Below are positions 4,596-37,472 of a stretch of 64,000 nt of DNA, piece after piece. Position 1 is the first letter of the stretch; every line of letters starts with the position of its first letter. This DNA comes from Planctomycetota bacterium (GTDB taxonomy: Bacteria; Planctomycetota; UBA8742; UBA2392): contig JADLFN010000046.1 of the NCBI GenBank assembly GCA_020845475.1, positions 138,997-202,996 of the forward strand, given 5' to 3'. The notes beneath the pieces were generated by a model. That model saw nothing but the letters and a program-made list of their open reading frames with translations, was not told where the DNA came from and made no database searches. Both the position numbers and the translations under genes were made by a program.

Positions 4596-5189
4596 CTATT
4601 TCCCGCCGGCCTTTTCGTAGTTCTTGGCCGCGAAATCCCAGTTCGCCAATGAAGCCAGGAACGTATCGAGGAACTTGGCGCGCGCGTTGCGATAGTCGAT
4701 GTAGTACGCGTGCTCCCATACGTCGCAGCACAGCAGCGGCGTCGCGCCACCCTTGAGCGGGCATTCGGCGTTAGGCGTCTTGGTGATTTCCAGCTTGCCG
4801 CCCTTGAGCGACAGCCACGCCCAGCCGGAACCAAACTGCGTCATGCCGGCCTCATGGAACTTTTTCTTGAAGTCGTCGAAGCTGCCGAAGTCGCGCTTGA
4901 TCGCTTCTCCGATCGCGCCCGTCGGTGCACCGCCGCCGCCCGCCTTGAGGCAATTCCAGTAGAACGTGTGGTTCCACACCTGCGCGGCCTGATTGAAGAG
5001 CGGGCCTTCAGCCGTTTTGATCAGTTCTTCGAGGCTCTTGCTGCCCTCGGGCTTGCCGGCCGTGATCTCATTCAGCTTGTCCACGTAAGCTTTAAGGTGC
5101 TTGCCCCAGTGGTAATCGAAATGCTCAGCGGAAAGGTGCGGCACGAGCGCGTCCTTGGCGTAAGGAAGCGGCGAGTGTTCAAAAGGCAT
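4596..5189 (-). CDS. sodB: Superoxide dismutase, Fe/Mn family
   Basis: 197 residues, the normal size. It converts superoxide to oxygen and hydrogen peroxide. Family landmarks are all present: LPYAKDALVPHLSAEH with the first ligand His in YHWGKH, AAQVWNHTFYWN (second His), FGSGWAWL, and DVWEHAYYIDY (ligand Asp and His). The QVWNHTFYWN wording is closer to the iron-type enzyme, though metal choice cannot be fixed from sequence. There is no signal peptide, so it is cytoplasmic. It is single-gene, with its own candidate promoter upstream (5241-5269) and divergent from the selenoprotein cluster. Start ATG 5189 is preceded by a GGAG-type ribosome site (CTGGAGGAATCC). Confidence 0.95.
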   Translation of the reverse strand: MPFEHSPLPYAKDALVPHLSAEHFDYHWGKHLKAYVDKLNEITAGKPEGSKSLEELIKTAEGPLFNQAAQVWNHTFYWNCLKAGGGGAPTGAIGEAIKRDFGSFDDFKKKFHEAGMTQFGSGWAWLSLKGGKLEITKTPNAECPLKGGATPLLCCDVWEHAYYIDYRNARAKFLDTFLASLANWDFAAKNYEKAGGK

Positions 5190-5503: not shown

Positions 5504-6361
5504 ATGCGAACGCTTTCTTCAACGGTATTGACGCTGGCCATTGTGAGCCTGGCGTTTGTTACCGCGCAGAAGCTGCAGGCCGGCTGATGACCGAAGGGCG
5601 GACAAGGTGCGTCCCGTGTGGACAAGCCGCAAACGAAGCGAGTTGGAACCCCAGCCCAGCCTGCGACTCCCATTGCGTGGGAGAAGCCGGACAGCTCAGC
5701 GCTTGAGAATGCCCAGAATGGCGACAAGCCGGTGGTCATTTTCTTCCCCGGCGAGGCCGCTGACCAGAATTCGGACAGCTATCTCTCCGACCCGGCCGTG
5801 AAGGCTCTGGTGAACGACAAAGCCATTTTTGTCCGTGTTGCCTACACCAGCGACCGTGAGAAGGCCCCTTCGGCTTCGCCGGTTCCGACGTGCAAGCTGA
5901 CGGGTGACAACCCCACGCGCGATTACGGCGTGCGGACTTACCCGACGTTCATCATTGCGGACAAGTTCGGCAACGAATGCAACCGCATTGAGTCCAAGAA
6001 GCCGACGGCCAAAGAGTTTGAAGCGTTCTTCGAGAAAGTGTCTTCCAAGATGGAAGACAACAGCAAGAAGCTTCAGAAGAATCTGGACGCTGCGAACAAG
6101 GCTTGGACTGGCAAGGATCGCAAGAACGCCCTGGCCAGCGTAATGCGTAGTTTCAAGGAAGGCCTCGTCGGGTACGATCCTGTTGAACCGACTGTGCGCC
6201 TTTACAACGAGCTGCTCGAAGATGCCCGCGGCGAAATCAGCCGCCTCGCTGAAGCCAACGATGTCAAGGGCCTGAAGGCGCTCAAGGCCCAGCTCAAGGG
6301 CACCGACGCCGAAAAGGATGTTGACGAGGCCATCGCTGGCCCCTCCAACACCAGCAAGTAA
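5504..6361 (+). CDS. Secreted thioredoxin-fold selenoprotein A, tandem Sec (UU) at mature N-terminus
   Basis: 285 residues if UGA at 5585-5587 and 5588-5590 is read as Sec (U28, U29). Start ATG 5504 has a strong site (AAAGGAG at 5491-5497). Residues 1-27 are a signal peptide ending LQAG; cleavage after LQA would leave G-U-U. Then comes a Gly/Pro-rich linker with RVDKPQTKRVG, shared with the next gene (RVDKPQQAKKRVVG), which argues for translation across the UGAs. Residues about 60-165 resemble a thioredoxin fold (KPVVIFFPGE, RDYGVRTYPTFIIAD) with PGE where CxxC normally sits. One Cys remains at VPTCKL. The rest is helical. A strict reading starting after the UGAs would lose the signal peptide. 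Function unknown; likely a periplasmic or extracellular redox or metal-binding role. Confidence 0.88.
5596..5615 (+). promoter_or_regulatory. Possible SECIS hairpin of selenoprotein A
   Basis: Downstream of the double UGA, GGGCG (5596-5600) can pair with CG-t-CCC (5610-5615, T5612 bulged) around loop GACAAGGTG. The alternative is GGAC/GTCC around AAGGTGC (loop at 5604, 16 nt after the first UGA). Both expose GGU in the loop. This is the weakest of the six hairpins in the window. Confidence 0.45.
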
Positions 6362-6821: not shown

Positions 6822-7727
6822 ATGACAGGTATGATCAGGACAGTCGGGCTCGCTGTGGCGTCCTTTGCGATGCTCGGCATTTCGGCTCAAGCTCTCAACG
6901 CCGGCTGATGCCCCGCCCCAGGCGGCGGTGGATCCGCTGGCACAGGTGGTACGGGCGCTCCAAGCGGTGGCAGCGCTGAACGTGTTGACAAGCCTCAGCA
7001 GGCCAAGAAGCGCGTAGTGGGCGCTCCGGCACCGGTCGAATCTCCCACGTTCCAGCGTCCGGGATCGGACGTCCTGGAGAACGCGGCAAACGGTCAACAG
7101 CCGATTTTCATCTTCTTCCCCGGCGAAAAGGACGACCCCAACACCTACTTCGGCGGGGCCGACTACAAAGCGCTGGAGGGCAAGGCCCAGTTCGTGACGG
7201 TGCCTTACAACTCCGACCGCGAGCCTTCGCCCGCGACCGAGGAATCCCTGGTTCCGACGTGCAAGCTCCTTTCGGATAACCCCTCGCGCGACTACGGCAT
7301 CAAGATGTACCCTGCCTTCATCATCGCCGACAGCTACGGCAACTCGATCCTGCTGCTCAGCGGCAAGAAGCCTGCGGCCAAGGACTTGGAGTCAGCCTTT
7401 GAAAAGGTTGGCGCCAAAATGGAGGACAACTCCAAGAAGCTGCAGAAGCGCCTCGACACCGCCAAGAAGTCTTGGGAAGCCAAGGACTCCACCAAGGCGA
7501 TGAACGAGATCCGCGGCAACTTCAAGGACGGCCTCGTGGGCTACGACGCCCAGAACGAAACCATCCGCGTTTACCACGAAGTCATCGAAGCCTCACGCGC
7601 TCAGGTTGAAAGCCTGAAAGCCGACGGCTCGGCGGAGGCGATGAAGTCGCTTAAGGCGATGAAGAACACGTTCAAGGGCACAGAGCTCGAAAAGTCAATC
7701 AACGAAGCCCTCAAGGGCTCGAAGTAA
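6822..7727 (+). CDS. Secreted thioredoxin-fold selenoprotein B, Sec-Cys (UC) at mature N-terminus
   Basis: 301 residues if UGA 6906-6908 is Sec (U29). ATG 6822 follows GGAGA (6812-6816); ATG 6831 in the same frame is a weaker alternative. The signal peptide ends ALNAG; cleavage after LNA would give G-U-C. U29-C30 aligns with U28-U29 of selenoprotein A, so Cys stands where A has its second Sec. A Gly/Ser/Pro linker follows, then the shared RVDKPQ element. Residues about 80-190 resemble a thioredoxin fold (QPIFIFFPGE, RDYGIKMYPAFIIAD) with no CxxC; a Cys occurs at VPTCKL. The C-terminal about 110 residues are charged helices. Role unknown; the U-C pair could form a selenenylsulfide. Confidence 0.88.
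6918..6940 (+). promoter_or_regulatory. SECIS-like hairpin of selenoprotein B
   Basis: CCA-g-GCGG (6918-6925) pairs with CCGC-TGG (6934-6940): seven pairs with one bulged G. Apical loop CGGTGGAT begins 17 nt after UGA 6906-6908 and has G at its second position. Size and spacing fit known bacterial SECIS elements. Confidence 0.65.
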
Positions 7728-7790: not shown

Positions 7791-8681
7791 ATGTCAAAGT
7801 TCAACATCGTGCTCGTCGCGCTGGTGACAATTCTGATGTCCAGCGCGGCTTGGGGCCAGTGAGGCGGCGGTGGCGGCTGAGGTGGCGGCGGCGGCGCCGG
7901 TGGCGCCGGAGTGGGTGCGGGTGGCGGTGCGGGGCCAGTTGGGCCCGGTGGTGGTGGTGGCGGTCGGGGAGCCTTGAAAGCCGACGGCATTATCGGCTGG
8001 GAGCCCTCGACGCCCAAGACGCTCGAGAAGGCGGCAACAGACAGCAAGCCAATCTTGATTTACTTCCCGGGCGAGGGACCTGAGTACAACTACGATGGCT
8101 ACTTCTACGGCAAGGATCTGAAGGACCTTGCGGACAAGAAGGCCGTGTTCATTCGCGTGGCCTACACAAGCGACCGCGCACCGGTTCCGTACTCGGAACA
8201 GAGCCCGATTCCATTGAACAAGATCGCCGGCGACAACCCGTCGCGCGACTACGGGATCAAGAATTACCCGACGTTCATTATTGCTGACCAGAACGGCAAC
8301 CCGTACTTCCGTGTTGAGGGCAAGAAGCCGACGGCCAAGGATCTCGAAGCCTACTTTGACAAGGTTCCTGAAGCCGCGACCAAGGCCAACGAGAAGCTTC
8401 AGAAGAACCTCGACGAAGCCAAGAAACTCTGGGAGAAGAAGGACAGCAAGGGCGCCGTGGCCATGTTGATCAAGAATTTCAAGGATGGCGCGGTTGGCCT
8501 CGCGGCCGCCGAGGGCGGCATCAAGCTGTACCGCGAGTTGCTTGAAGATGCCAGGGCCAAGCTCAAAGATATTGGCGACAAGAGCAAGGCCGACAACGTC
8601 AAGAAGCTCAAGGCCATGCAGCGCGAGTGGGGCAAGGGCACCGAGATCTACTACGAGATTGAGGACATCCTGAAGTCCTAG
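7791..8681 (+). CDS. Secreted thioredoxin-fold selenoprotein C, U-GGGGG-U Gly-rich N-terminal tail
   Basis: 296 residues with UGA 7860-7862 and 7878-7880 read as Sec (U24, U30). ATG 7791 is preceded by a TAGGAG site (7778-7783). Residues 1-21 are a signal peptide (IVLVALVTILMSSAA). The predicted mature start is Q-U, then five Gly, a second U and a roughly 40-residue tail almost purely Gly, Ala, Val and Pro, ending at GRGALKADG. Residues about 75-185 are the thioredoxin-like domain of the two upstream paralogues (SKPILIYFPGE, RDYGIKNYPTFIIAD), again without CxxC and here without the VPTC cysteine (IPLNK instead). After the Secs the protein has no Cys, so any redox or metal chemistry must use the selenols. 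Function unknown. Confidence 0.86.
7892..7908 (+). promoter_or_regulatory. SECIS-like hairpin of selenoprotein C
   Basis: CGGCGCC (7892-7898) pairs perfectly with GGCGCCG (7902-7908) around a GGT loop. The loop is 18 nt after the second UGA (7878-7880) and 36 nt after the first (7860-7862), so one hairpin could in principle serve both. Confidence 0.72.
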
Positions 8682-9236: not shown

Positions 9237-10637
9237 GTGCCTGAAAAAACTACATCTCCGTCGTTGCGCGACCTGCCAAAGGTCGATGCACTGCTTTTGA
9301 CCACCGACTTCGAGGCGTTGGCCCAGCGCTACGGCCGCACTCCCGTGGCGCAAGAAACCCGCGCCGCGCTGGATTCATTGCGCCAGCGCCTGCGCGCCAA
9401 CAATGGCGTGAACACTACAGAGATTTCGCCTCACGGCCTCGCCTTGCGCGTGCGCGAATCACTGGAAAAACTCTTCGCGCCGCGCCAATGCCGCGTCATC
9501 AACGCCACAGGCGTGATCCTGCATACCTCGCTGGGCCGCGCGCCGCTTGCTCCGGCCGCCGTCGAGCAGGCCGTGCGCGAGGCTTCGGGCTACTCGCTGC
9601 TCGAACTCGACCGCGAAAGCGGCAAGCGCAGCGACCGCGACAAACTGGTAAACGATCTGATCTGCCGCGTGACGGGCGCGCAGGCCGCGACGGTCGTGAA
9701 CAATAACGCCGCGGCCACGATGATCATTCTGAACTCGCTTGCCGAGGGCCGCGAAGTCATCTGTTCACGCGCGCACATGGTGGAAATCGGCGGCAGCTAC
9801 CGCATGCCCGACGTCATGCGCAAGGCAGGCTGCAAGCTCGTCGAAATCGGCTGCACCAACAAGACGCACCCTCGCGATTACGAAGACGCCGTCACGCCGC
9901 AAACGGCGCTGCTGCTCAAGGTGCACACCAGCAATTACGCCGTCGTCGGCTTCACAGAAGAAGTCTCGCTGCCTGACCTGATGGCGATTGGCAAAAAACG
10001 TGAAGTGCCCGTTTTCTATGACCTCGGCTCCGGCTCATTGGTTGATCTCGCGAAGTACGGCATCTCGCGCGAGCCCAGCGTGCCCGAATTGCTCAAGCAT
10101 GAACTGGATGTGCTCTGCATCTCCGGCGACAAGCTGCTGGGCGGCCCGCAGGCGGGCATCATCATCGGCAAGCCGGAGATCGTGCAGCGCGTGAAAAAGA
10201 ATGCGCTCTTCCGCATGGTGCGCTGCGACAAATTCACGCTCTCGCTGCTCGAAGCCACGCTCAAGCTTTATCTCGATGAAGATTCGGCTCTCAAGCGCGT
10301 GCCAACACTCGCGGCAATCACGCGCGACGCTGGCGAGGTCAAGCTGAGCGCCGAACGCATCTGCGCTTCGCTCAAGAAAGCCGGTCTTGACGTGTCAACG
10401 GCCAGCGCCACAAGCCAGGTCGGTGGCGGCAGCACGCCCGGCGAGTTTCTGCCCACCACGGTCATCGTCTGGCGCGGCCCCTTCAAATCGGTCGATGACA
10501 TCGCGCGCCGCCTGCGCCTTGGCACGCCCTGCGTGTTTGCGCGCATCGAGGACAACGCCCTGCTCTTTGACCCCCGTTCGCTGCTGCCCGGCCAGGACGA
10601 CGAACTGGCCGCGGCCATTCTCGCGGTCAAGGCGTGA
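9237..10637 (+). CDS. selA: L-seryl-tRNA(Sec) selenium transferase
   Basis: 466 residues, full length. SelA is a PLP enzyme that converts Ser-tRNA(Sec) to Sec-tRNA(Sec) using selenophosphate. The N-terminal tRNA-binding domain starts LPKVDALL, then VINATGVILHTSLGRAPL, the standard SelA opening of the catalytic domain. The PLP lysine is in SGDKLLGGPQAG (about K299). GTG 9237 is the first good start. The gene sits 550 bp downstream of three selenoprotein genes and 730 bp upstream of tRNA-Sec, with a glycosyltransferase gene overlapping its stop (GTGA). It ends in TGA, showing that UGA also works as a stop here. selB and selD are not nearby. Confidence 0.97.
   Translation: MPEKTTSPSLRDLPKVDALLLTTDFEALAQRYGRTPVAQETRAALDSLRQRLRANNGVNTTEISPHGLALRVRESLEKLFAPRQCRVINATGVILHTSLGRAPLAPAAVEQAVREASGYSLLELDRESGKRSDRDKLVNDLICRVTGAQAATVVNNNAAATMIILNSLAEGREVICSRAHMVEIGGSYRMPDVMRKAGCKLVEIGCTNKTHPRDYEDAVTPQTALLLKVHTSNYAVVGFTEEVSLPDLMAIGKKREVPVFYDLGSGSLVDLAKYGISREPSVPELLKHELDVLCISGDKLLGGPQAGIIIGKPEIVQRVKKNALFRMVRCDKFTLSLLEATLKLYLDEDSALKRVPTLAAITRDAGEVKLSAERICASLKKAGLDVSTASATSQVGGGSTPGEFLPTTVIVWRGPFKSVDDIARRLRLGTPCVFARIEDNALLFDPRSLLPGQDDELAAAILAVKA
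10387..10398. repeat. TTGACNNGTCAA palindrome inside selA
   Basis: TTGACGTGTCAA, one of six copies of this palindrome in the window. Here it encodes part of GLDVSTAS near the C-terminal end of SelA. Confidence 0.6.
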
Positions 10638-11364: not shown

Positions 11365-11457
11365 GGGAGCGGATGCATTCCTGGTGGATGCCCTGGTCTT
11401 CAAAACCATGGTGGGGCGCGAGTCCCAGGTCGGTTCGATTCCGATGCGCTCCCGCCA
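11365..11457 (+). tRNA. selC: tRNA-Sec (anticodon UCA)
   Basis: 93 nt including encoded CCA (11455-11457). The anticodon TCA is at 11400-11402 in loop CTTCAAA. It has the features that set tRNA-Sec apart: long acceptor (GGGAGCG pairs with CGCTCCC), a 6-bp D stem (GCATTC/GGATGC) with a short loop, a long variable arm (about TGGGGCGCGAGTCCCA), and T arm GTCGG-TTCGATT-CCGAT with discriminator G. The eighth acceptor pair would be G-G, a small departure from E. coli selC. It is charged with serine and converted by SelA, whose gene lies just upstream. Confidence 0.95.
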
Positions 11458-31987: not shown

Positions 31988-32860
31988 CTAGTCAAAAGGC
32001 ATGGGGTTGAGCACGGCCCTGGGCGGAGTCTTGGGATCTATGAAGGCTGCGTGCACCTGATGGCACTGGTGGCAGTGGGAGACCATTTCCTGGTAGGCCT
32101 GCCTCAGCTTCTCGCGCTCTTTGTTTGCCGCCAGTCTGGCCAGGGCGTCAGCCGCGATTTGCAAGTCGCGCCAGCGTTTGCCGCGCTTGGCTGCAATGTC
32201 CATGATGGCTTGAACGTGCGCGATAGCCGCGCTTGCGTCCTTGGCGATGATGGCGGCCTCGGTTTTGTCGTGGTGCACGAGCATGGCCTGCATGACGGCG
32301 CGGTTTTCCACGGCGGGCGGCGGCTCGCCTTCATTGAGCATGGAATCGTGCGCGCTGGGGATTTCGTTGCGCAGCCATTTGCCGATGATTTCTTTGGTGG
32401 CGTGCTGGTAGATCGGCGACCAGGTTTCGAGGTGGCAGCTATCGCAGGCCTTGCCGAAGGTTTCGTTCTCGGCGTTGGCGGATAGCCAGTCTTTGTCAGC
32501 AAGCGCCTCGACGACCGCTTTGCCCGGCGCGGCAAAGGCCTCCCAGCGCATGGCCAATCGATCGGCGCGGCTTGAGATGTCTTTGGCGTAGGCTTCAACG
32601 AGCGCGTAATCGGGAGCACCCTGGCCGCGGCTCATGGTCACGATCTTGGCGCAATCAAGCCAAAGCGTGCGCATGGTGGTTTTGTACTGGTTGCGATAGA
32701 TCCAGTTGTGATCCAGCTGGTCATCCCAGAACGGCGGAGCCTGTTTGGGTGCAGGTGGGCTGTTGTTGCCCGAACTGTTGCCCGTGCAGGCCGCCACGAA
32801 CAACGTCATCGAAGCGGTTGCGCACATCAGCGCAAAACACACAGCCGCGCGCCTGTTCAT
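31988..32860 (-). CDS. Predicted dihaem c-type cytochrome lipoprotein
   Basis: 290 residues from ATG 32860, which follows GGAG at proper spacing. Lipoprotein signal with lipobox VAAC (SMTLFVAACTGNSS). Two CxxCH haem sites: CDSCH in the middle and CHQCH near the C-terminus, the latter followed by VHAAFIDP. Between them are amphipathic helices (HHDKTEAAIIAKDASAAIAHVQAI). It resembles the four-helix cytochrome c' fold in part, repeated. An exported electron carrier is likely; partner unknown. It is transcribed just after selenoprotein D (72 bp apart, same strand), so the two may form a transcript. Confidence 0.75.
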   Translation of the reverse strand: MNRRAAVCFALMCATASMTLFVAACTGNSSGNNSPPAPKQAPPFWDDQLDHNWIYRNQYKTTMRTLWLDCAKIVTMSRGQGAPDYALVEAYAKDISSRADRLAMRWEAFAAPGKAVVEALADKDWLSANAENETFGKACDSCHLETWSPIYQHATKEIIGKWLRNEIPSAHDSMLNEGEPPPAVENRAVMQAMLVHHDKTEAAIIAKDASAAIAHVQAIMDIAAKRGKRWRDLQIAADALARLAANKEREKLRQAYQEMVSHCHQCHQVHAAFIDPKTPPRAVLNPMPFD

Positions 32861-32931: not shown

Positions 32932-33765
32932 CTACTTGCTGCCGGCCTTCGCCGCCAGCGCCTTGATGGCACTTTCGATTTCGGCGCTCACATCGGTGCC
33001 GGCATAGGTTGCCTGCAACTGCTTGAGTTTTGCGTCGTCCTCAAGGGCCGAAGCGAGCAGTTCGCGGGCGCGTGTCATGATGCTGTTGTAAAGCTTCGCG
33101 GCTTTCGTGGCTTCTTCCCAGTGGGTCAGCTTCAACTTGAAGCCTTCGAGCAACTGCTTGACCGCGGCGGCGTCATCGCTCGCGTCAACGTGCGATTGGG
33201 CCTGATCCACGAACTCGGCCAATTGGGCGCGCGCCGCCTTGATGGTCTTGCGCAGCGAGCTGACGGTTTTTTCGAGCTTCTTTTCCGTGGTGCGCGCAAA
33301 TTCGTTGCCGTATTCGTCGCACACTATGAACGTGCCGGCCTCGGGATTGTCGTAGGCCGCCCACAGGCTCGTGTTCGCAAGACGGCTCTGGGGCACGATA
33401 CTGGCCTTTGGCGCAACTGGGGCTTCGCCCTCTTTAGGGGCGCTCACGATTACGCAGGACACCAGAGCTTTCTTCTGCAAATCGCCAAGGTCAACATCGG
33501 CCGTCCACTTGGCGTCTTTGGACTTGTCCTCAAAGTAGAAGACAAGCGCCTTGCCGTTGCTGCGCGCATCCTGAAACACGTCTTTGCTGGCTGAAATCCA
33601 TGTTGTGGCCACCTGGCCACCGGCTTTCTGCCCTCACGTCTTGGTTCCACCGGAACCTTCGCCAGGCGCTCACGACGCTCAGGCAAAGGCGTCAAAGGGC
33701 GAAAGCAGGCCCGTTCCCAGTGTCAGGAACGAGGCCGCGGCAAATGTCAGCAGAGTCTTTTTCAT
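32932..33765 (-). CDS. Secreted thioredoxin-fold selenoprotein D with UASU plus a third Sec
   Basis: 277 residues if UGA at 33681-33679, 33672-33670 and 33636-33634 is Sec (U29, U32, U44). ATG 33765 follows AGAAGGG. Residues 1-28 are a signal peptide ending DAFA; cleavage after AFA makes Sec the first mature residue. The tail is U-A-S-U (CxxC with both Cys as Sec), then APGEGSGGTKT-U-GQ. The domain (KALVFYFEDKS, then GTFIVCDEYGNEFA) and helical C-terminus are related to selenoproteins A-C. Two hairpins follow the UGAs (listed). Starting at GTG 33612 would remove the signal peptide and all Secs. The dihaem gene follows on the same strand. Function unknown. Confidence 0.87.
33605..33620 (-). 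promoter_or_regulatory. SECIS-like hairpin after the third UGA of selenoprotein D
   Basis: On the minus strand GTGGCC (33620-33615) pairs with GGCCAC (33610-33605) around AGGT. The loop starts 19 nt after UGA 33636-33634 and has G at position two. Confidence 0.7.
33643..33657 (-). promoter_or_regulatory. SECIS-like hairpin after UASU of selenoprotein D
   Basis: On the minus strand GGTTCC (33657-33652) pairs with GGAACC (33648-33643) around GGT. The loop lies 18 nt after the second UGA and 27 nt after the first. Confidence 0.75.
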
Positions 33766-33946: not shown

Positions 33947-35011
33947 ATGGCAATCACTCGCGAAGCGATTCTGGCGGCGTTGAAGGGTGTGCAGGACCCG
34001 GACCTGCACAAAGACCTCGTTGACCTGGGCATGATCAAGGAGCCCAAGGCCGACGGCGTGAACATCGAACTTACGGTGGAACTGACCACGCCAGCTTGCC
34101 CGCTCAAGGATCAAATCGGCAACGAGATCACGGCGGCGCTCAAGAGCAAGCTGGGCGCGCAGGCCGTCAAACTCAACTGGACTTCGAACACCGCCGCCAC
34201 GAACGTGACCGCCAAAGACCTCATCCCCGGCGTGCGTAACGTAATCATGGTGGCCGCAGGCAAAGGCGGCGTGGGCAAGAGCACCGTGGCCGCGAATCTC
34301 GCCAACGCGCTGGCGCAACACGGCGCCGAAGTGGGCCTGCTCGACGCCGACATCTACGGGCCAAGCATGCCCACGATGTTCGGCATTCATGAGCAGCCGA
34401 TCGCGACCGAAGACCAGCGCATCATCCCGCACGTGAAATTCGGCGTCAAAGTGATGTCGATGGGGTTTCTGCTCGCCGAAGGCCAGGCCGTAGTCTGGCG
34501 CGGCCCCATGCTCGATAGCGCGATTCGCCAATTCCTGGGGCAAGTGGAGTGGGGCAACCTCGATTATCTCGTGGTGGACATGCCCCCCGGCACGGGCGAC
34601 GTGCAGCTATCGCTAACGCGCATGGTGCCGACGGCGCAGGCGGTGATCGTGACCACGCCGCAGGATGTCGCGCTGGCCGACGTGAAGCGCGCCATCGGCA
34701 TGTTCAACACAGTGAAAGTGAACGTGCTGGGCGTGGTCGAAAACATGTCCGGCTTTGTGTGCTCGCACTGCCAGAAGAAGACCGACATCTTCGGCAAGGG
34801 CGCTGGCAAACGCTGCGCCGACAAGTACGGCATCGCGTACTTCGGAGAAATACCGCTGACAGAAGAAGTCGTGAAATCCGGCGACAACGGCAAGCCGATC
34901 TTAGTGAGCCACCCGCAAGACCCCGCCAGCCTCGCGCTCAAAGATTTCGCCATGCGCGTAGCCCAGCAAGTCGCGATCACCGCCAACAAAGGTCAGCCGG
35001 TGACGGCTTAG
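33947..35011 (+). CDS. mrp: Mrp/ApbC-family iron-sulfur cluster carrier ATPase
   Basis: 354 residues from ATG 33947. Residues 1-85 are a MIP18/DUF59 domain (AILAALKGVQDPDLHKDLVDLGMIK, TTPACPLKDQ). The P-loop ATPase has the deviant Walker A GKGGVGKST (about 103-111), LLDADIYGPSMPTMFG, and the CxxC cluster site in FVCSHCQKK. Mrp proteins carry 4Fe-4S clusters to target enzymes. A decayed copy of its 3' end lies at 35825-35948, on the far side of a two-gene cassette. Confidence 0.95.
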   Translation: MAITREAILAALKGVQDPDLHKDLVDLGMIKEPKADGVNIELTVELTTPACPLKDQIGNEITAALKSKLGAQAVKLNWTSNTAATNVTAKDLIPGVRNVIMVAAGKGGVGKSTVAANLANALAQHGAEVGLLDADIYGPSMPTMFGIHEQPIATEDQRIIPHVKFGVKVMSMGFLLAEGQAVVWRGPMLDSAIRQFLGQVEWGNLDYLVVDMPPGTGDVQLSLTRMVPTAQAVIVTTPQDVALADVKRAIGMFNTVKVNVLGVVENMSGFVCSHCQKKTDIFGKGAGKRCADKYGIAYFGEIPLTEEVVKSGDNGKPILVSHPQDPASLALKDFAMRVAQQVAITANKGQPVTA

Positions 35012-35028
35012 CTTGGTAGAATTACCCC

Positions 35029-35298
35029 ATGGCCATACTCAGCAACTGGGACGCGGTTCGTGCCGTTGAGTCGAAGGAACTTCGTTCAATGACTCCAAGC
35101 GCTCGCCTGAAGACACTCAACCAGCTCATGAACTGGGCGCGGGAGATGGGCTGGGAGACGAAGATTCGCAAAAGCAATCGCGACAAGTGGGAAGCCTGGG
35201 CCGCGCTCAAGAGAAAACTCGATGCCACCAAGAAAACTCCCGCCCGCGGCAGTTCAGCTTCAAGCCACACTCAAAAGAGTCGTCGGGTGGCTGCGTGA
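35029..35298 (+). CDS. Small basic protein upstream of a nucleotidyltransferase
   Basis: 89 residues, unrecognised. Mostly helical and basic: LKTLNQLMNWAREMGWETKIRKSNRDKWEAWAALKRKLD. It starts 17 bp after the mrp stop and overlaps the following nucleotidyltransferase gene by 77 bp. Overlap and position suggest a two-gene toxin-antitoxin-like cassette in which this could be the partner or antitoxin. It belongs to the segment bounded by the intact mrp and the mrp remnant. Confidence 0.6.
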   Translation: MAILSNWDAVRAVESKELRSMTPSARLKTLNQLMNWAREMGWETKIRKSNRDKWEAWAALKRKLDATKKTPARGSSASSHTQKSRRVAA

Positions 35299-35824
35299 AG
35301 CCAAAGCCCCGATGGCCATCATCGGTGGTGTGGCGGTGGCATTCCATGGCAATCCTCGATTGACCAACGACGTTGATGCGGTCGTGTTCGTCGATGAGTC
35401 GAAACTCGTCGAGTTCCTGAAGCTGGCTTCGAAACACGGGATCATTCCGCGCATCGCGGGTGCGCTGGATTTTGCGCAAATCAACAGAGTGCTGCTCTTG
35501 AAAGACAAGGCCACGGGCACTGGCATCGACGTGGCTCTCGGTGCCCTCGCCTTTGAGCAGAGAATGCTGAAACGCGCCCGTCCTGTTCGTGCAGGCGGGT
35601 TGAACCTGCCGGTGGCCTGCGCTGAAGACATTACGGTCATGAAGGCCTTTGCCAATCGAGCCAAGGATCTGGCTGACATTGAGAGCATGCTCGGAGCGAA
35701 TCCGAAGCTCGACCTTAATTTGGTGCGCAGAGAACTGACCGAACTCGCCGAGCTGCGCGAGGCGCCCGAGATACTGGCGGCGTTCGAAACATTGCTGGCG
35801 AAATGGCGTAAGCGGGCCGGGTAG
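35222..35824 (+). CDS. Nucleotidyltransferase-fold protein (AbiEii/MNT-like)
   Basis: 200 residues. Motif I is IIGGVAVAFHGNPRLTNDVDAVVF: GG plus R-T-D-D-x-V, the Pol-beta-type nucleotidyltransferase signature with its Asp pair. TGIDVALGALAFEQRML supplies the third acidic position, and the C-terminal half (RAKDLADIESML, ELREAPEILAAFETLLAKW) fits the helical part of the nucleotidyltransferase AbiEii/DUF6036 group. Members act as toxins or tRNA/protein modifying enzymes. It forms a cassette with the overlapping upstream gene, inserted next to mrp. Confidence 0.72.
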   Translation: MPPRKLPPAAVQLQATLKRVVGWLREAKAPMAIIGGVAVAFHGNPRLTNDVDAVVFVDESKLVEFLKLASKHGIIPRIAGALDFAQINRVLLLKDKATGTGIDVALGALAFEQRMLKRARPVRAGGLNLPVACAEDITVMKAFANRAKDLADIESMLGANPKLDLNLVRRELTELAELREAPEILAAFETLLAKWRKRAG

Positions 35825-35948
35825 TGGCGAAACAGCAACTTGGCCGCACGCCGATAATCGTCAGCCATCCGAATGACCCTGCGAGCTAAGCGCGTGCCAG
35901 CAGCAAGTCGCAATCATGGCCAATAAGGGCCAACTAGTGACTGCGTAG
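35825..35948 (+). pseudogene. Decayed 3' fragment of mrp
   Basis: About 125 bp aligns with the last part of the mrp gene: ATAATCGTCAGCCATCCGAA matches ATCTTAGTGAGCCACCCGCA, and CAGCAAGTCGCAATCA matches CAGCAAGTCGCGATCA, ending in TAG like mrp. It has an internal deletion, in-frame stops and many third-position changes. It follows the nucleotidyltransferase stop directly, so the cassette lies exactly between intact mrp and this remnant. Confidence 0.85.
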
Positions 35949-37472
35949 TTACTCAAGCGTTGAGAGAACGGTGTCGATCTTGCCGCTGTCCACCACCGCC
36001 TGCACCTTTTCGAAGTCTTCGTACAGAGCGCGGTCGCGTTCGAGTGGCTCAGTTACTCTAGCCAGCGCGTCGTAGATGCCTTTGACGCCTTTGCCCGGTT
36101 TGAGCGGCTTGTGGTATTCGAGTGCCAACCTTGAGGCGAGCAGCTCGATGCTGAGGATGTTCTTGATGTTCTTCAGCACGTGGTCGGCTTTGAGCGCGGC
36201 CGTGACTCCCATGCTGACGTGGTCTTCTTTGTTCGCGCTTGTGGGAATGCTGTCCACGCTGGCCGGGTGGGCGTGGATTTTGTTTTCGCTGGCCAGCGCC
36301 GCGGCTACGACCTGGGCGATCATCAGGCCGCTGTTGAGGCCGCTGTCCTTGACGAGAAATGGGGGCAGATTGCTGAGGTCGGGATTCACCATCTGCTCCG
36401 TGCGGCGCTCGGAGATCGCGCCGATTTCGCTGAGCAAGATCGCGAGATAATCCAGCGCCTGCGCCAGCGGCTGGCCGTGGAAATTGCCCGCCGAAATCAC
36501 TTCGCCGTCCTCAGGGAACAGAATCGGGTTGTCCGTCACGGCGTTCAGCTCGCGCTCGAACACCTGTTCGATATGCGTGAACGCGTCGCGCGCCGCGCCG
36601 TGAACTTGCGGCACGCAGCGCAGGCTGTAGGCATCCTGCACGCGCGGGTCGTTGTCGCGGTGGCTCTCGCGAATCTCGCTCTTCTCCAGCATCTTGAGCA
36701 TGTTGCGCGCCACCAGCGCGTGGCCGGGGTGCGGCCGAATTTTCGCGACGCGCGGATCAAAGGGTGAATCGCTGCCGCGCAACGCTTCGAGCGAGCAGGC
36801 CGCAGCCGCATCGGCAACTTTGAGCCAGCGGCGCGATTGCACAATCGTGCGCAGGCCAATGGCCTGAATAATCTGCGTGCCGTTGACGAGAGCCAAGCCT
36901 TCTTTGGCTTGCAGCACAACGGGCTTGAGACCCGCCAGTTTCAGCGCCTCGCCACCGGCCATCAGCTTGCCCTTGAAATAGGCTTTGCCCTCGCCGAGCA
37001 GCACGAGCGCGATATGGCTCAAGGGCGCGAGATCGCCCGAAGCGCCCACGCTGCCCTTTCGAGGCACCCACGGAACCACGGGCGAATTCAGCAGCGCCAG
37101 CAGCGCGTCGATGACTTCCTCGCGCACCCCTGAATTGCCATGCACCAGCGAGTTGATCCGCAGCAGCATCGCAAGCCGCGTCGTGTTTTCGGGCAGGGGC
37201 TCGGCCACGCCGCAGGAGTGCGAGCGAATCAGGTTGAGCTGCAACTCGCCCAGCTTGTCGGCGCCAATGCGCACGTTGGCCATTTTGCCAAAACCCGTGT
37301 TCACGCCGTAAACGGGCTTGTCGGACTTGAGCAGCTGTTCAACGAAAGCGCGGCCTTTGCGGATGGCAACGCGGGCTTCTTTGCTCACGTTGACGGGCGC
37401 GTACTCGCCGTCGAGAAATTTCGCGATGGAATCAATGGTGAGGCAATCACCGGTCAGGGTCAGTTTGGGCAT
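35949..37472 (-). CDS. hutH: Histidine ammonia-lyase family (MIO) enzyme
   Basis: 507 residues from ATG 37472, the normal size. The MIO cofactor triad is in GSVGASGDLAPLSHIAL (ASG near residue 143). Other landmarks: VYGVNTGFGKMANVRI, LIRSHSCGVAEPL, QDAYSLRCVPQVHGAARD, NPILFPEDGEVISAGNFHGQP and SVDSIPTSANKEDHVSMG. These fit histidine ammonia-lyase, which deaminates L-His to urocanate as the first step of histidine breakdown. No hutU, hutI or hutG is near, so a related aromatic ammonia-lyase or aminomutase role is not excluded. Confidence 0.9.
   Translation of the reverse strand: MPKLTLTGDCLTIDSIAKFLDGEYAPVNVSKEARVAIRKGRAFVEQLLKSDKPVYGVNTGFGKMANVRIGADKLGELQLNLIRSHSCGVAEPLPENTTRLAMLLRINSLVHGNSGVREEVIDALLALLNSPVVPWVPRKGSVGASGDLAPLSHIALVLLGEGKAYFKGKLMAGGEALKLAGLKPVVLQAKEGLALVNGTQIIQAIGLRTIVQSRRWLKVADAAAACSLEALRGSDSPFDPRVAKIRPHPGHALVARNMLKMLEKSEIRESHRDNDPRVQDAYSLRCVPQVHGAARDAFTHIEQVFERELNAVTDNPILFPEDGEVISAGNFHGQPLAQALDYLAILLSEIGAISERRTEQMVNPDLSNLPPFLVKDSGLNSGLMIAQVVAAALASENKIHAHPASVDSIPTSANKEDHVSMGVTAALKADHVLKNIKNILSIELLASRLALEYHKPLKPGKGVKGIYDALARVTEPLERDRALYEDFEKVQAVVDSGKIDTVLSTLE

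Follow-up and report, generated by a model that had tools for sequence, protein, structure and literature searches.

A predicted exported selenoprotein of Planctomycetota with three conserved selenocysteines near its N-terminus, encoded beside a dihaem cytochrome

We analysed 64,000 nucleotides of a Planctomycetota genome (the window) and found on the minus strand a gene, here called member D, with three in-frame UGA codons that are predicted to encode selenocysteine (Sec, U). Judged from its sequence, the genome encodes its own Sec machinery, and D is an exported selenoprotein with three Sec residues. The gene and its parts are as follows.

32932..33765, minus strand: three-Sec selenoprotein gene (member D), ATG at 33765, TAG stop at 32934-32932, 277 amino acids
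33771..33778, minus strand: ribosome-binding-site-like sequence AAGAAGGG, 5 nt 5' of the member D ATG
33682..33765, minus strand: predicted signal peptide, residues 1-28, ending AFA; the first Sec is preceded by A-x-A, A-x-G or V-x-G in 12 of 12 copies
33679..33681, minus strand: UGA for Sec29, predicted mature residue 1, kept in 12 of 12 copies
33670..33672, minus strand: UGA for Sec32, kept in 12 of 12 copies
33634..33636, minus strand: UGA for Sec44 (T-U-G-Q), kept in 12 of 12 copies

With TGA read as U, the minus strand from 33765 to 32932 translates as MKKTLLTFAAASFLTLGTGLLSPFDAFA-U29-AS-U32-APGEGSGGTKT-U44-GQ and onward to the TAG. The gene contains exactly three in-frame UGAs and no other internal stop. 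An earlier note on this DNA had placed a signal peptide, a UxxU motif, a third Sec and a family domain in one open frame, as the translation confirms.

The family search covered 79 genomes of relatives, 16 of them from the same taxonomic family, and 392 genomes of the phylum. The protein family was present in all 16, with 3 to 9 matches each, and a D-type ortholog in 12; no three-UGA match was found outside these 16 in the 392 genomes searched. The named records comprise 12 loci from Planctomycetota MAGs (nine of D type and three paralogs). All 12 D copies share a common layout consisting of a signal peptide, U-[A/G]-S-U, a short Gly/Ala-rich stretch and T-U-G-Q, and the spacing between U32 and U44 is 11 codons in the window copy, 10 in some orthologs and 12 in genome G004. 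The invariant columns of an 11-row alignment of D are the three Secs, S31, G35, T43, G45 and Q46. The twelfth copy (genome G014, locus L051) has an N-terminus with the same three UGAs; it is frameshifted after about codon 70, through sequencing error or decay.

We compared substitutions in three independent close pairs of D genes. Codons 29 to U44 carry 7 synonymous changes over 33.4 sites against 1 non-synonymous change over 104.6, and codons 1-28 carry 21 synonymous changes over 70.7 sites against 15 non-synonymous over 181.3; in the two other frames of this 5' segment the synonymous to non-synonymous ratio is reversed in the same pairs. This pattern favours the proposed frame, and the segment before U44 is therefore translated in it. 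As these comparisons indicate, selection acts at the protein level in this frame. That all 12 D orthologs keep the three UGAs is likewise more than chance. The three Secs of D, proposed in the earlier note and borne out by UGAs conserved in every ortholog, are as well supported as sequence allows, and we hold them to be nearly certain.

Components for decoding these codons were located in the window and on another contig, selB lying on contig C56 of the same genome.

11365..11457, plus strand: tRNA-Sec (selC)
9237..10637, plus strand: selA (PF03841, E 3.4e-139)
33643..33657, minus strand: SECIS-like hairpin 1, GGUUCC-GGU-GGAACC, loop 18 nt after U32 and 27 nt after U29
33605..33620, minus strand: SECIS-like hairpin 2, GUGGCC-AGGU-GGCCAC, loop 19 nt after U44

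Published limits place the bSECIS hairpin 16-37 nt after the UGA, with a G in the first two loop positions (PMC13188914). Under these limits, all 12 copies have a stem of at least 6 after U44, where synonymous shuffles lead one to expect 3.25. The corresponding counts are 8 of 12 for U32 (0.80 expected) and 9 of 12 for U29 (2.69 expected), which are not independent of each other because they mostly reflect one shared hairpin. Stems of at least 4 occur in all 12 copies for each UGA and do not discriminate, since shuffles give 8.4-10.3. Two further rules were set once the folds had been viewed. By the first, a hairpin whose loop is GG[U/C/A] starts 18-20 nt 3' of U44 in all 12 D copies; by the second, narrower and applied across the wider family, 39 of 63 UGA groups have a stem, against 9.87 expected, and the other 24 have none. 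These wider-family hairpins lie mostly at 18 nt and have a GGU loop, and their stem sequences differ between genes. The folding energy of 60-nt windows was not clearly below that of synonymous shuffles (z from -1.7 to +1.3), and an Rfam search returned no SECIS match. One hairpin thus appears to serve both U29 and U32, and a second to serve U44.

Another genetic code was considered and rejected, as selA itself terminates in TGA and the genome has a tRNA-Sec. We also weighed the reading that the UGAs terminate translation, or stand for something other than Sec, and that the functional protein begins at or after GTG 33612. Such a GTG does exist in frame, but it falls inside hairpin 2, and all 12 copies conserve the sequence upstream of it in this frame, non-synonymous changes being far fewer than synonymous ones. 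In addition, the genome contains Sec machinery, and the TGA at the end of selA shows that UGA is also a stop here. We find this reading scarcely credible; the earlier note had named a start at or after this GTG, without a signal peptide, as the outcome that would overturn its proposal, and the conserved upstream coding sequence speaks to the contrary.

Signal peptide features (an n-region, a hydrophobic core and small residues at -3/-1) were recognized by eye in all 12 copies, the -3/-1 residues before the first Sec being A/A, A/G or V/G. These residues support, as a prediction, the earlier proposal that Sec is the first residue of the mature protein: signal peptidase I would cut after residue 28, and mature D likely begins with Sec. 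The peptidase might instead cut two residues further on (A-U-A|S), but this would discard one invariant Sec. A lipoprotein reading, in which Sec takes the place of the lipobox Cys, was rejected by eye, as the paralogs often have Q at -1 or an unfit residue at -3 and D fits signal peptidase I instead.

Structure prediction divides the remainder of D into two parts.

33247..33618, minus strand: thioredoxin-like domain without CxxC, residues 50-173 (Z 10.0, rmsd 2.9 over 101 residues)
32935..33288, minus strand: all-helical C-terminal part, from residue 160 (AlphaFold model and structure matches)

The AlphaFold model (mean pLDDT 84.8) is mostly confident beyond residue 50, and residues 1-50 are disordered, mostly with pLDDT under 50. 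In this model the UxxU motif and the third Sec appear to sit on a flexible arm outside the fold, before the thioredoxin-like domain. The C-terminal part gave generic helical matches only (best Z 7.6). Neither CxxC nor UxxC is found at the thioredoxin-fold active site, where the 11-row alignment has no Cys. C104/105 is present in 9 of the 11 full-length D copies; because no Cys is common to all 11, the invariant chalcogen residues of D are limited to its Secs. Searches of Pfam and NCBIfam with D gave no match over cut-off. PF00578 was not among the best 25 of 29 families matched (E up to 1) by the 11 D members, nor among the 10 families listed for P0001, and none of NF041115, TIGR02605 and TsoB (NF045694) was among the 5 families listed for the 11 D members; a TsoB match for one of 5 members was weak (E 0.15). 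A PDB sequence search with D gave nothing convincing, and a plasmid search gave no match.

These observations bear on the reading of U-A-S-U as a CxxC in which both Cys have been replaced. Cys is absent from all three Sec positions in every one of the 12 D copies, and a replaced CxxC therefore cannot be read from the homologues; the motif, moreover, lies in a disordered tail. Cys forms do occur in paralogs and distant relatives, at those proteins' own N-terminal positions. This part of the earlier interpretation is thus not supported, whereas its Secs, signal peptide, family membership, neighbouring cytochrome and rarity of UxxU stand.

To the 3' side of D lies the gene that the earlier note had recognized as a dihaem cytochrome.

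31988..32860, minus strand: dihaem c-type cytochrome lipoprotein with CDSCH, CHQCH and a lipobox-like VAAC, conserved downstream of D

This gene immediately follows D in all 12 D loci, whereas neither PBP nor Mrp, the two further window neighbours that were looked for, turned up in them. The match of the cytochrome to PF01322 is borderline (26.6 against 26.5 bits), and the window copy and 8 named orthologs, those parsed out of 9, retain both CXXCH motifs. In the four family genomes without D, a cytochrome match is absent from two and distant in two (1.5e-22 and 1.9e-28), absences that are not proof because the MAGs are 80-87% complete. The constant gene neighbourhood shows that D and the cytochrome are partners; that redox chemistry and electron transfer would connect them we infer from this pairing and from the pattern of residues.

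On the other side of D, at window positions 34960-35950, there seem to be two copies of the 3' end of the Mrp/NUBPL-type gene, one at the gene itself (QQVAITANKGQPVTA) and one near 35948 (QQVAIMANKGQLVTA). A nucleotidyltransferase-like ORF, recognized by eye around 35222-35824, lies between them, so that an insertion may have taken place here and this 3' end may have been duplicated.

The mechanism that in our view best fits these sequences, and to which we give about an even chance, is that D serves as an envelope redox arm working with the neighbouring dihaem cytochrome. Mature D would carry U1-x-S-U4...T-U16-G-Q on a flexible arm, and the thioredoxin-like domain, which lacks CxxC, together with the helical C-terminal part would be the scaffold and docking surface. 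The arm selenols would cycle via a U1-U4 diselenide, with U16 as a resolving or third partner, and would pass electrons to or from the membrane-anchored cytochrome encoded directly downstream; the substrate would be of thiol, disulfide or peroxide type. The constant pairing with one dihaem cytochrome and the thioredoxin-like fold are also consistent with a dedicated thiol reductase for haem attachment, which would reduce the CXXCH cysteines of the neighbour in a CcmG/ResA-like role, and Foldseek placed 3f9u, an exported cytochrome c biogenesis-related domain, at rank 10. However, the fold of D lacks the CxxC, and a private reductase for a single cytochrome would be unusual; we regard this explanation as rather improbable.

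That D belongs to a larger family, as the earlier note had stated, is borne out by further members in the window and elsewhere in the genome.

5504..6361, plus strand: paralog A, ...QAG-UU-PKGG (translation)
6822..7727, plus strand: paralog B, ...NAG-UC-PAPGGGG (translation)
7791..8681, plus strand: paralog C, ...WGQ-U-GGGGG-U-GGGGG (translation)
L011:1492-2427, another contig of the same genome: paralog E, fifth member, GQ-UU-GGGGGGG

The commonest form across the family is UU or UC right after the signal peptide, and paralogs A and E have there two Sec codons in succession (UGA-UGA). The tandem paralog array adjoins selA in 15 of the 16 family genomes, the exception being G012, and this large selenoprotein family therefore travels with the Sec machinery. 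Beside the array in the window is an Fe/Mn superoxide dismutase gene (4596-5189, minus strand). Several exported Sec proteins per genome, in arrays beside selA, might suggest that D is a selenium store or carrier like selenoprotein P, with its Sec content as cargo. The proteins have only 1-3 Sec each, though, and the Secs of D and their neighbouring residues are invariant, as for an active centre, so that we think a storage role very improbable.

Elsewhere in the phylum, linkers rich in Gly or Pro come after AG-UCP or AG-UG (loci L031/L087, L034 and L090), and related proteins have Cys at that site in L088, L125 and L126 and neither Sec nor Cys in L061. Such sequences may reflect a phylum-wide N-terminal Sec/Cys arm module in exported proteins. 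A broader proposal, which we put forward tentatively and at less than even likelihood, is that Planctomycetota have an exported class of proteins whose catalytic element would be a mobile N-terminal Sec arm instead of part of the folded domain; mature D would begin with Sec, and its three Secs, the UxxU pair and one more, would form a diselenide relay for one cytochrome.

Some paralogs contain Cys only, with repeated Cys-Gly spacing such as CSGGGCSGGGCGSGG (L069:1690-2853, L076:1639-2649 and L077:1723-2694), and their arms are metallothionein-like. The main rival to the redox arm, which we judge unlikely, holds that the Sec arm is a ligand for a soft metal or haem iron (Cu(I), Hg(II) or similar), with the N-terminal amine, U1, U4 and U16 binding the ion and then handing it on. 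An arm of this kind could bind metal just as well. Cys-rich paralogs with metallothionein-like spacing are in line with a metal ligand, as is the presence among catalogued UxxU families of FmdB and the metal-binding NF041115 (putative mercuric reductase). Yet the constant neighbour is a cytochrome and not a metal-handling gene (cytochrome, PBP and Mrp having been tested for recurrence), and a match to PF13801 (Heavy-metal resistance) was weak, for one of 11 members at E 0.1.

Ordinary gene calling would truncate such genes at their UGAs or begin them downstream, and the family is therefore probably hidden in databases. The three Secs of D lie within 16 residues outside the fold, are retained by all orthologs found and are tied to one cytochrome, a pattern that points to a selenium-based chemistry of the cell envelope that is as yet undescribed. 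Two questions thereby become testable: how closely spaced UGAs are decoded in bacteria, where a single hairpin apparently serves two of the codons, and what function a UxxU that is fully selenated has at the envelope. An N-terminal Sec-arm relay, if true, would add a new type of architecture to the selenoenzymes.

A review catalogue lists 119 prokaryotic selenoprotein families, most with a single Sec; its UxxU entries are a Prx-like family, the metal-binding NF041115 family and FmdB, and these 3 of 119 agree with the rarity of UxxU asserted in the earlier note, while three Sec occur in one arsenite methyltransferase/AhpD fusion (PMC13188914). The layout of D is absent from this 119-family table, through which the families of Haft and Tolstoy 2025 were compared as listed there, and a term search of PMC12013277 gave no matches. 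Prx-like thiol:disulfide oxidoreductase selenoproteins (PF00578, UxxC/UxxU), as the catalogue describes them (PMC13188914), share with D a thioredoxin-like fold and, in some, UxxU; however, D has no PF00578 match, appears to carry its Secs on an N-terminal arm rather than at the active site of the fold, and has a third Sec. The UxxU pair is likewise found in the catalogued NF041115 and FmdB-type proteins, whereas D matches neither model and is a predicted exported thioredoxin-like protein. Thioredoxin_2, Thioredoxin_7 and DsbH/DUF255 have the same fold, but that of D is without CxxC and the sequence matches are weak. In E. coli YbbN and the PDI-related ERp29/Wind, which are among the first Foldseek matches, a thioredoxin-like domain is followed by helices as in D, but whole-chain TM-scores are low (about 0.26-0.29 by query) and these proteins have no Sec arm. 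Mammalian thioredoxin reductase has a mobile, Gly-containing C-terminal GCUG arm whose Sec carries electrons; in D, for which we claim no homology to that enzyme, the arm would lie at the opposite end of the chain.
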